Part shown: positions 244-4,484 of the stretch, in pieces
How the letters are laid out: the number at the start of each line of letters is the position of its first letter
Position numbering within the stretch: position 1 is the stretch's first letter
Origin: an uncultured Hyphomonas sp.
GTDB taxonomy: Bacteria; Pseudomonadota; Alphaproteobacteria; Caulobacterales; Hyphomonadaceae
Direction of reading: 5' to 3'
DNA length: 64,000 nt
Assembly: GCF_963678195.1 (NCBI RefSeq)
Contig: NZ_OY782759.1
Span: 3,038,001-3,102,000, forward strand
The notes under the pieces: generated by a model
The model's database searches: none
Told to the model about the DNA's origin: nothing
The model's input: only the letters and a program-made list of their open reading frames with translations
Made by a program: the position numbers and the translations under genes

Positions 244-333
244 TCACAAGGCTGAGACGCGGGCCGGGCCCCGTCTACAAGCTTGCCAAAAATGACGGCG
301 AGGCGCAGGTTGTTCTCTCAAAAGGAGACTGCC

Positions 334-717
334 ATGCGCCTCGCCGTTCTTCTGTTTTTCCCAATGTTTCTGGCCGGTTGCGCGTGGTTTCTCGAACCGG
401 GCGTCGTGCCGGACCGGGCCGTGCCGCCGGATGAAGTGGCCGCGCCAGACCAGATACCGACCGCCAGCGAAGGCGCCATGTGCGGTGGCATTGCCGCTAT
501 TCAGTGTGAAGAGGGCCTGACTTGCATTTATGACGACGGGGTTTGCCGCTCCATGGCAGACGGCGCCGGCACCTGCAGGAAGACCGGCCCGATCTGTACC
601 AAGGAATACCGCCCGGTCTGCGGCTGCGACGGCAAGACCTATGGCAATCGTTGCGAAGCCTATGCCGCTGGCGTCAGCGTCGCCCTGCCCGGCGAATGTG
701 CGGTGAAAGAGAGCTGA
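334..717 (+). CDS. Lipoprotein with a C-terminal Kazal-type protease inhibitor domain
   Basis: A 127-residue exported protein. The ATG at 334 follows AAAGGAGA at 321-328 and opens directly into a lipoprotein signal (MRLAVLLFFPMFLAGC), with the acylated cysteine at residue 16; an upstream in-frame ATG at 283 lacks this context. A Pro/Ala-rich linker follows, then a Cys-containing region around residues 45-72, then a Kazal fold near residues 85-125 with the core PVCGCDGKTYGNRCEA. Kazal domains inhibit serine proteases by presenting a loop to the active site. Here the protein would sit on the periplasmic side of a membrane, and the target protease is unknown. It is a single gene that ends at a shared terminator. 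Confidence 0.8.
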   Translation: MRLAVLLFFPMFLAGCAWFLEPGVVPDRAVPPDEVAAPDQIPTASEGAMCGGIAAIQCEEGLTCIYDDGVCRSMADGAGTCRKTGPICTKEYRPVCGCDGKTYGNRCEAYAAGVSVALPGECAVKES

Positions 718-2904: not shown

Positions 2905-4116
2905 TCAGCCTTTGACGCAAACAACCTGTTTCAGTGTGTGGACAATCTCCACAAGGTCGGTCTGCGCGGCCATGACGGTGTCGATGTCCTTGTAGGCCAT
3001 CGGCGTTTCATCAATGACGCCGGAGTCTTTCCGGCATTCCACGCCATCGGTCGCCATGAGGTGGTCCTCCACAGTGAAGGTCCGCTTGGCTTCCGACCGG
3101 CTCATGGCCCGCCCTGCCCCGTGCGAGCAGGAGCAGAATGAGTCCGCATTGCCCTTCCCGCGCACGATAAAGGACTTCGCCCCCATCGAGCCGGGAATGA
3201 TGCCGAGGTCGCCTGCACCGGCACGCACAGCGCCTTTGCGGGTCACCCAGACATCTGCGCCGAAGTGGTGTTCCCGCTCCACATAATTGTGGTGGCAGTT
3301 CACCGCTTCCTTCTCCAGCGAGAAGCCAGGGAAGAAATCGCGCAAAGCAAGCAGCACGCGGTCCATCATCACTTCGCGGTTAAGGCGCGCATAGTCCTGC
3401 GCCCAACCGACGGCCATCGTGTAGTCATCGAACAGGTCTTCCCCTTCCACAAAGAAGGCGAGGTCCCGGTCGGGGACGTGATAGCCGAGCACCCTTTTCT
3501 CCAGTGCCTCGCGGGCCTCCTGGATGAAGTAGGTGCCGAGGATGTTCCCCGTGCCGCGGGATCCGGAATGCAGCATCACCCACACACGGTCCACTTCGTC
3601 GAGACAAAGCTCAATGAAGTGGTTCCCGCCGCCAAGCGTGCCCAGCTGTTTGGCAAAGGCCGTACGCTGGATCCGCTTGTGCTTGCGGAGGATCACATCG
3701 AGCTTGTCGGCGAGGCCGGACGCACGAAGGGCTGTGGCCGCACGGGCGGGCGCTTCCTTGTGGTTGCCACCGCGGCCATTGCCCACCGGCACCTTGCGCT
3801 CGATCTCACTGCGGATGGCCGACAGGCTCTCCGGCAGATCATTCGCCGTAAGGCTTGTGCGCACCGCCATCATTCCGCACCCGATATCGACGCCGACAGC
3901 GGCGGGAATGATTGCCCGCTTTGTGGGGATCACCGACCCGACTGTCGCCCCGCGCCCGAAATGGACGTCGGGCATCACGGCAAGGTGCGAGTGAATGAAG
4001 GGCAGGCCCGCAACATTCTCAAGCTGCGTGCGCGCCTGCGATTCGACAGGCACGCCTTTCACCCAGGCCTTGATGCGCCCGCCGGCGCTGGTTTCAATCA
4101 CTTCAAATTGGCTCAT
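2905..4116 (-). CDS. rtcB: RtcB-family RNA ligase (3'-phosphate/5'-OH)
   Basis: A 403-residue RNA ligase that joins RNA 3'-phosphate or 2',3'-cyclic phosphate ends to 5'-OH ends using GTP and Mn2+, in tRNA or rRNA repair. Seen motifs: PDVHFGRGATVGSVIP, GVDIGCGM (metal cysteine), GGGNHFIEL with an HSGSRG loop, the HNYVEREHH histidine cluster, and KGNADSFCSCSHGAGR with the GTP-guanylated histidine. The start is placed at 4116 (MSQFEVIETS), matching the usual RtcB N-terminus. An in-frame ATG at 4230 would add 38 residues but runs through an attenuator-like hairpin. There is no adjacent archease, prfH or rtcA. The upstream leader ORF and paired hairpins suggest transcription attenuation. Confidence 0.95.
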   Translation of the reverse strand: MSQFEVIETSAGGRIKAWVKGVPVESQARTQLENVAGLPFIHSHLAVMPDVHFGRGATVGSVIPTKRAIIPAAVGVDIGCGMMAVRTSLTANDLPESLSAIRSEIERKVPVGNGRGGNHKEAPARAATALRASGLADKLDVILRKHKRIQRTAFAKQLGTLGGGNHFIELCLDEVDRVWVMLHSGSRGTGNILGTYFIQEAREALEKRVLGYHVPDRDLAFFVEGEDLFDDYTMAVGWAQDYARLNREVMMDRVLLALRDFFPGFSLEKEAVNCHHNYVEREHHFGADVWVTRKGAVRAGAGDLGIIPGSMGAKSFIVRGKGNADSFCSCSHGAGRAMSRSEAKRTFTVEDHLMATDGVECRKDSGVIDETPMAYKDIDTVMAAQTDLVEIVHTLKQVVCVKG

Positions 4117-4155
4117 CGTTCTCAAAGCTTCTTCTGACAAAGCTCCTCCTGACAA

Positions 4156-4225
4156 GCCCTCCGCGCGGTCCCTCGGGTTCAGAAAGACAAAGAAAAACCC
4201 TCCGGGCGGTAAAAGCGCGGAGGGC
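4156..4225 (-). promoter_or_regulatory. Attenuator-like alternative hairpins in the rtcB leader
   Basis: In RNA sense (minus strand) the arm GCCCTCCGCGC (4225-4215) can pair in two exclusive ways. Its CCCTCCG part pairs with CGGAGGG (4204-4198), giving a 7-bp stem followed at once by TTTTTCTTTGTCTTTC, a good intrinsic terminator. Alternatively all 11 bases pair with GCGCGGAGGGC (4166-4156), a longer stem that destroys the terminator and ends just before an AGGAGG. A shared 5' arm with terminator and antiterminator partners is the classical attenuator layout. It sits between the 28-codon leader ORF and the rtcB start. The structures are seen in the sequence; the regulation is inferred. Confidence 0.6.
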
Positions 4226-4266
4226 AGCATAAACTCCTGTCGGAGCCCGGGACTGACCGTCAGCCC

Positions 4267-4353
4267 CTATCCAGCAACCTCCATGCAGCAGCGATCCTCA
4301 CCCTGATACAGGGTGGGAGCTGTTTTCTGGAAATTTGATTCTGGCCGTTTCAT
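4267..4353 (-). CDS. 28-residue leader peptide / small protein upstream of rtcB
   Basis: A short ORF not previously obvious because of its size. ATG at 4353 is preceded by AGAGGA about 8 bases upstream and by a strong promoter at 4384-4412, giving a 5' UTR of roughly 24 bases. The product is 28 residues: Lys/Glu-rich at the start and ending GEDRCCMEVAG before a TAG stop. The tandem rare cysteines near the end, followed by a terminator-type hairpin 40 bases on, suggest a regulatory leader peptide for rtcB. A free-standing small protein with its own terminator is the alternative. I do not recognise the peptide family. Confidence 0.6.
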   Translation of the reverse strand: MKRPESNFQKTAPTLYQGEDRCCMEVAG

Positions 4354-4383
4354 CGGTCCGTCCTCTGACTGGATTGGAGGCGC

Positions 4384-4412
4384 CATATGATGGAAGCGCG
4401 CAGAGGCGTCAA
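4384..4412 (-). promoter_or_regulatory. Promoter of the rtcB leader transcript
   Basis: On the minus strand TTGACG (4412-4407) and CATATG (4389-4384) are separated by exactly 17 bases, placing the transcript start near 4377. It lies directly after the rplQ terminator and 31 bases before the leader ORF. The -35 box is the same as at the rpsL, rpsJ and rpsM promoters in this window. Confidence 0.65.
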
Positions 4413-4421
4413 CCGCAAAAC

Positions 4422-4448
4422 AAAAAACCCCGGAGGAAAACTCCGGGG
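4422..4448 (-). terminator. Terminator of the ribosomal alpha operon (after rplQ)
   Basis: CCCCGGAG (4428-4435) and CTCCGGGG (4441-4448) form an 8-bp stem with a GAAAA loop on the plus strand (TTTTC on the RNA); six T follow in minus-strand sense at 4427-4422. It sits 36 bases after the rplQ stop and insulates rtcB from the ribosomal protein operon. Confidence 0.9.
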
Positions 4449-4484
4449 CTCTTTGATTTCCTTGCGGAAAATTCTTTGCGCGGA

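Follow-up and report, generated by a model that had tools for sequence, protein, structure and literature searches.

Ribosome-mediated transcription attenuation of the trp, ilv and his type combines a leader ORF, mutually exclusive 1:2, 2:3 and 3:4 pairings and a terminator placed before the structural gene. The leader described here precedes rtcB in a window of 64,000 nucleotides (the whole stretch of DNA that was analysed) from a Hyphomonas genome of 3.67 Mb and shares these elements, but differs from such attenuators in that its putative target is an RNA ligase, that its region 1 lies upstream of the leader Shine-Dalgarno (SD) sequence instead of within the ORF, and that a further competitor follows downstream of the terminator. 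Unlike those leaders, it also lacks a run of one regulatory codon; neither such a run nor one of end-product codons occurs in the listed leader peptides, and RtcB makes no amino acid, which sets the leader apart from the amino-acid operon subtype. Leader-ORF attenuators that answer ribosome inhibition are closer in input, and one of them reportedly controls hflXr. Another reportedly acts on a DUF1127 gene of Sinorhizobium under tetracycline (PMC12218461). As in these two cases, the proposed input of the rtcB leader is translation trouble rather than an amino acid, whereas the target gene is a different one.

Control of the same enzyme has been described through RtcR and sigma54, a system that, unlike the rtcB leader, uses a protein activator binding tRNA fragments. 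The available portions of two articles state that E. coli rtcAB answers agents and lesions impairing translation (PMC5175333), and that Salmonella RtcR binds tRNA fragments, with rtcBA switched on by damaged tRNA, in an account of RtcR/sigma54 and YrlA RNAs (PMC7790460). RtcB control in the literature found runs through RtcR, and RtcR-less bacteria are not covered in the portions available. No title or abstract start describing this leader was among the matches listed on rtcB regulation, in a search whose coverage mostly leaves out subscription papers, and the word rtcB is absent from the main text of PMC4117421 and PMC1273637. A preliminary description of this DNA, made from the letters alone, had reported that RtcR was not seen; indeed, RtcR (PF06956) is found in 0 of 41 genomes, the window's own included, with a positive E. 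coli control.

Layout and occurrence of the leader

All features of the locus lie on the minus strand. The rtcB gene (2905..4116) encodes an RNA ligase of 403 aa (Pfam PF01139 RtcB, E 7.7e-128) and starts with ATG at 4116, with TTG at 4140 behind AGGAGG as a possible alternative. The gene preceding the leader (4904-4485), which we take from its sequence to be rplQ, is followed by a hairpin and T-run at 4448-4421, so that the leader probably starts a separate transcription unit. The leader begins with a putative sigma70-like promoter, predicted as TTGACG-N17-CATATG at 4384..4412 (TTGACG 4412-4407, CATATG 4389-4384), followed by the SD AGAGGA (4361..4366) and a 28-codon ORF, MKRPESNFQKTAPTLYQGEDRCCMEVAG (4267..4353; ATG at 4353, stop TAG 4269-4267). 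Behind the ORF lie the 5' arm of the terminator, GCCCTCCGCGC (region 3; 4215..4225, with CCCTCCG at 4224-4218), and its 3' arm (region 4; 4193..4204), which consists of CGGAGGG (4204-4198) and TTTTT (4197-4193). These elements, together with a GGAGG in the leader and an 11-bp alternative stem, had been listed in the preliminary description, and all were recovered at the minus-strand coordinates given there. A generic scan of the window for terminators and promoters listed neither the leader promoter nor the leader terminator, the latter because the scan allows loops of up to 8 nt while the leader terminator has a loop of 13 nt. The same scan found 12 terminator-like sites against 10.1 expected, so that a single sequence alone does not rise above chance; conservation does.

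A terminator with a CCTCC-type arm and a T-rich tract stands before rtcB in 94 of 124 upstream regions, which comprise 55 from the family Hyphomonadaceae, 53 from the order outside the family and 16 from the class outside the order. By group it is present in 50/55 regions of the family, 17/17 of f2, 14/18 of f3, 6/12 of f4 and 5/6 of f5, and in 2/16 of the class outside the order, both of them f127; the terminators of L151 and L164, seen by a hairpin scan but missed by the arm pattern, are counted as missing in the 94. These regions derive from rtcB genes in 56 of 105 genomes of the family (55 of the 56 regions were read, the rtcB of G052 lying at a contig edge), in 71 of 200 genomes of the order, family included, and in 19 of 289 of the class; L199 was left out of the analysis. 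An SD-preceded ORF is conserved across loci and lies ahead of the arm in 78 of 94, against 16.0 expected from dinucleotide shuffles, under a loose rule (SD, 20-62 codons, end 15-110 nt before the arm), and in 67 of 94, against 2.8 from such shuffles, under a strict one (ATG, 22-45 codons, stop 20-75 nt before the arm). The earlier proposal of an attenuator-like ORF leader upstream of rtcB is supported by these counts. The 16 misses are 7 of 13 g10 loci, where the SD is weak, L148, L149, L152 and L153, whose leader lies outside the fetched stretch, and L063, L168, L172, L200 and L201; in L075 and L082 the counted ORF is an extended form. Counts of 88 leaders below omit L148, L149, L152, L153, L168 and L172, which have no ORF under the per-family rule, and rest on per-family ORF lengths and a list of GGAGG-type motifs fixed after inspection. 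In Hyphomonas the ORF has 28 codons at 24/24 loci (L033 could start one codon earlier, and L035 starts with TTG), and the distance from stop to arm varies from 39 to 45 nt. The leader ORF is thus short and, judging from its conservation, apparently translated.

The promoter element TTGAC stands 57-60 nt 5' of the leader ATG at 24/24 Hyphomonas loci, 65-67 nt at 13/13 g10 loci and up to 90 nt ahead of the leader at 53/88 loci overall; at none of these 53 does TTGAC occur between terminator and rtcB. It precedes 0/32 leaders of f2, f3 and f4, all of which belong to the 35/88 lacking it. The association with rtcB holds independently of location: when 84,980 species genomes were scanned for the pattern, 30 of the 31 matches lay directly upstream of rtcB on the same strand, and the single one elsewhere (L106) was rejected, as it falls within an open frame of 412 residues on the other strand. 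An order-wide covariance search (299 genomes) is strong inside the family alone; its eight matches in f2, f3 and f5 just upstream of rtcB have E 0.0016-0.12, while non-rtcB matches reach E 0.0008. A search for the peptide in relatives, as had been suggested, returned matches at E<=1 in 21/105 family genomes, but most are weak. Possible leader copies elsewhere in the genomes were dropped as weak peptide matches, L022, L023, L024, L026 and L027 having no promoter-ORF-terminator layout by eye. Leader-bearing rtcB of the order have at least 65% identity to the window RtcB and most leaderless ones at most 64%; the exceptions, all leaderless, are G086 (75%) in the order, and G346 and G568 (both 67%, G568 lying at a contig edge) and G478 (65%) outside it. 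Comparison of these loci supports an ORF-containing, structured leader that is tied to rtcB and conserved well beyond the genus Hyphomonas. An Rfam scan of the window gave no match above the gathering score; of six sub-threshold matches at 4080-4480, five lie at 4411-4480 and one (E 4.4) at 4156-4225. A longer rtcB starting from ATG 4230 inside the terminator was also considered and rejected, the open frame being just 405 aa in five Hyphomonas loci.

Three candidate partners of the CCCTCC arm and other helices

On 50 aligned rows the terminator is paired in 99.7% of cells, with one pair changing in concert (GC:40 AU:7 GU:2). The second candidate partner of the 5' arm is the end of the leader ORF, GCATGGAGG (region 2a; 4278..4286), which contains GGAGG at 4282-4278. 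A GGAGG-type motif is found at the leader end in 78/88 leaders, against 5/88 that carry one within 36 nt of the ORF start; as ATGGAGG it keeps to the reading frame in 40 leaders and lies outside it in two of g7 (L058, L063). The pairing of leader end and arm is invariant and shows no covariation, so that covariation is silent on the antiterminator. When own partners were compared with permuted ones, 465 of 2000 permutations reached the own score for 88 rows and 2 of 2000 within Hyphomonadaceae; the test is weak in part of f2, where its leader-end window cuts off the GGAGG. Swap tests did not support the view that each arm is matched specifically to the leader end of its own locus.

The third partner is a downstream copy, GCGCGGAGGGC (4156..4166), complementary to region 3 and able to form 11 bp with GCCCTCCGCGC at 4225-4215. 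On the 50 rows this helix is paired in 95.8% of cells, again with one covarying pair (GC:35 AU:7 GU:7). Terminator and downstream helix have one position in common at which seven rows, identical for the two helices, replace GC by AT on both sides; the two mutually exclusive helices change together, perhaps through a single event or two. Two-sided changes are absent from all other pairs of the two helices on these rows. For the downstream copy, tested with either terminator arm on 94 rows, 0 of 2000 permutations reached the own score, and the swap tests supported this pairing as well as P1 (see below) in Hyphomonadaceae. The copy matches the 5' arm at most Hyphomonadaceae (f1) loci and some of those in f2, and the 3' arm at 12/14 f3 loci and the two f127 loci; f5 and g7 have no evident copy. 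Transcription reaches GCGCGGAGGGC 27-37 nt past the U-tract, too late for this copy to decide termination, so that it could act after read-through only. The longer stem is conserved but cannot take the terminator-removing role first given to it; the usable antiterminator partner of the CCCTCC arm is the leader-end GGAGG, a pairing that the preliminary description had also pointed out.

The leader end has in turn a competing partner in P1, a helix between the leader 5'UTR just before the SD (region 1; 4365..4375) and the last leader codons, GTTGCTGGAT (region 2b; 4269..4278). On alignment A2 (36 Hyphomonadaceae rows, g10 and g5 excluded) its 10 pairs are formed in 87.9% of cells, falling to 22-42% when the helix is slid by 1-3 columns, and 8/10 form in the window copy. 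Two-sided cells number 34 against a shuffled mean of 9.7 and the covariation score is 0.350 against 0.182, neither reached in 500 shuffles; five pairs have a two-sided change, a number reached by 71 of 500. Shuffles and permutations ignore kinship, and a tree-based count was made for P1 pair 24-123 alone (30/36 rows), which runs through GC, AT and CG by 3 changes on the rtcB tree and is paired in 30/30 rows. Permutations of the P1 window gave a weak signal inside g10 (50 of 2000) and none in f2, f3, f4 and f5 (1800, 1756, 241 and 1065 of 2000). The 1:2 pairing that competes for the leader end is supported, as P1, on the 36 Hyphomonadaceae rows. There, P1, the leader-end GGAGG and the terminator give a trp-like 1:2 / 2:3 / 3:4 topology. 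Two smaller hairpins also lie, like P1, above all 500 shuffles in covariation score and in two-sided cells: H0 inside the ORF (ACCCTGTATCAGGGT; 4300..4314), with a score of 0.416 against 0.180, although its number of pairs with two-sided change is reached by 142 of 500 shuffles, and H1 directly 3' of the stop codon (4249..4267), with 96.4% of cells paired and a score of 0.200 against 0.150. A variable hairpin H2 (4231..4248) is predicted by folding, and RNAalifold on alignment A1 found the terminator alone.

The 88 leaders were folded up to the point before the 3' arm of the terminator is made. The arm pairs with the leader end in 83/88 models with a ribosome held near codon 9 (115/880 for shuffled ORF-to-arm controls with the ribosome near that codon) and in 79/88 with the ribosome on the start, but in 3/88 with the ribosome on the stop codon; without a ribosome it does so in 35/88 and is free of the leader end in 53/88. 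In g10 models without a ribosome P1 is no hindrance, the antiterminator forming in 12/13 and the arm staying free of the leader end in 1/13, and in f5 the antiterminator persists in 3/4 models with the ribosome on the stop. The window copy makes P1 when folded without a ribosome and the antiterminator when the start is covered. Once the 3' arm is present, the terminator wins in all four folded window states (P 0.99-1.00), and by family means it lies -0.1 to 8.1 kcal/mol below the antiterminator state, the mean advantage being 5.2 kcal/mol in Hyphomonas and about 0-2 in f2, f5 and g10. Co-transcriptional switches can act through whichever structure forms first. With the terminator favoured at equilibrium, a switch at this locus must be kinetic, the antiterminator forming first.

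A candidate ribosome-position switch and competing explanations

At a probability of roughly two in three, the region is best explained as a ribosome-position transcription attenuator that would turn rtcB on when translation of the leader stalls. Its architecture is well supported by the comparison of loci, while we infer the direction of the switch and its signal. Ribosomes that finish the leader would cover the leader end, the terminator would form and rtcB would stay low; with no ribosome, P1 or similar pairings may hold the leader end in many species. A ribosome arrested on the start codon or in the early part of the ORF would let the leader end capture the arm first and so allow polymerase to continue into rtcB. 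As its input the switch would sense delayed translation, for example by damaged tRNAs or ribosomes, which RtcB repairs; in read-through transcripts the arm is open to pairing with the downstream copy, which may tune translation of rtcB. More tentatively, and with the odds somewhat against it, the leader could be a dedicated translation-integrity sensor of RtcR-less bacteria, in which ribosome progress on the ORF releases RtcB upon tRNA or ribosome damage and the CCCTCC arm with its three partners sets transcription and, after read-through, translation of rtcB. If so, a translation-reading leader would link RNA repair to RNA damage with no need of a sensor protein, and would offer a ready-made reporter for stress that damages tRNAs or ribosomes; its covarying stems make the switch directly testable by a few point mutations.

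What the ORF encodes bears on two other explanations. The preliminary description had proposed a peptide-sensed leader with a Cys-Cys pair, an idea that comparison does not support: the pair occurs in 5/24 Hyphomonas leaders and 0/64 others (5/88 in all), and the peptide is weakly constrained, which leaves Cys or peptide sensing unsupported. Frame-0 pN/pS is 0.63 in Hyphomonas (other frames 1.09, 0.93), 0.50 in g3 (1.14, 1.14), 0.79 in g10, 0.71 and 1.03 in two f2 sets, 1.00 in f3, 0.80 in f4 and 0.94 in f5. Together with the out-of-frame ATGGAGG of g7, this weak constraint places the act and extent of leader translation, which seem to count for more, above its product. An attenuator in which a particular codon (Cys-Cys; Gln, Asn, Tyr or Pro CCA) or the nascent peptide stalls the ribosome is accordingly improbable, even though frame 0 is lowest in Hyphomonas, g3 and one f2 set, with the strongest constraint in the first two; another frame lies below it in g10, one f2 set, f3, f4 and f5. 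Leaders are richer than rtcB of the same 30 Hyphomonadaceae loci in Gln (3.4x), Tyr (2.6x), Pro, Cys and Asn (2.5x each), and CAG (118 in frame vs 40+17 in the other frames), AAT (69 vs 14+10) and TAT (53 vs 7+12) are in excess, but the frame excess is unspecific, with GTC the highest (62 vs 11+5) and GAG and TTC also high. CCA:CCG is 62:37 in the 88 leaders and 21:231 in 30 rtcB genes, two unmatched sets; Hyphomonadaceae alone show an excess of CCA, the counts elsewhere being 15 vs 26 and 33, and no residue is common to all families in the listed peptides. The codon bias is a lead, not a result.

Somewhat ahead of codon or peptide stalling, yet still unlikely, is the explanation that the ORF forms an independent small gene or small RNA ending at a terminator of its own, in which case rtcB would be reached by constant read-through or from an unrecognised promoter and there would be no switch. 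Promoter, SD, ORF and terminator are complete in themselves, the equilibrium favours the terminator, and the lack of TTGAC before the f2, f3 and f4 leaders leaves promoter placement unproven there. A plain gene, however, has no use for P1, would hardly precede rtcB in 30 of 31 pattern matches, and would be expected neither to carry its GGAGG-type motif so predominantly at the leader end nor to have so weakly constrained a peptide. Quite doubtful is a mainly post-transcriptional control, with the downstream copy or a small hairpin at the rtcB ribosome-binding site (AGCTT...AAGCT, 4126..4144, read by eye) gating translation. The conservation of the downstream pairing, its change in common with the terminator, its permutation result and its fit to one arm or the other all speak for such gating, but the leader ORF, the U-tract and the GGAGG at the ORF end would go unexplained, just one pair of the helix covaries, the permutations ignore kinship and f5 and g7 show no evident copy. 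That RtcB cleaves and re-ligates the leader RNA as its own substrate, and so regulates itself, is hardly credible, the link to rtcB alone pointing that way and nothing direct. A resemblance of g10 leaders, which read TTGGATCAACCTCCTTTC, to the anti-SD tail of 16S rRNA was considered as a possible 3'-end mimic; the idea was set aside, because the GGATC part is able to pair with a GGTCC that follows the leader stop.

Neighbouring features and other rtcB loci

Leaderless, divergent rtcB genes of the same order (61-64% identity) are preceded, on their own strand, by Rfam YrlA (RF02553) and/or tRNA-like RNAs: YrlA at L078, L080, L081, L190 and L197, tRNA-like RNAs alone at L191, L195 and L196. One genome, G178, has both kinds of rtcB, L163 with the leader and L197 with YrlA. 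At L207, outside the order, another rtcB is preceded by a short ORF-like stretch and then by a terminator-like hairpin of a different, G+C-rich kind (stem 15), perhaps an unrelated attenuator. In f2 and f3 loci (e.g. L173, L177, L179, L180, L150, L155) the rtcB start codon lies, by eye, in a hairpin loop whose stems differ by species (GAACCC..ATG..GGGTTC, AACCGG..ATG..CCGGTT) and extend into the beginning of the rtcB coding region. Compared with L150 or L155, the f3 loci L148, L149, L152 and L153 have about 230-280 nt more between terminator and rtcB, which suggests an ORF insertion. At L082 (G077) the rtcB match is split into neighbouring pieces (residues 1-263 and 265-403) that lie in different frames, perhaps through a frameshift. 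Within the window, a 353-residue protein is encoded downstream of rtcB on the same strand (1560-2621, minus), with no Pfam or NCBIfam match at E<=0.001, and a predicted protein at 283-717 (plus strand) carries PVCGCDGKTYGNRCEAYAAG, which we take to be a Kazal-like motif.
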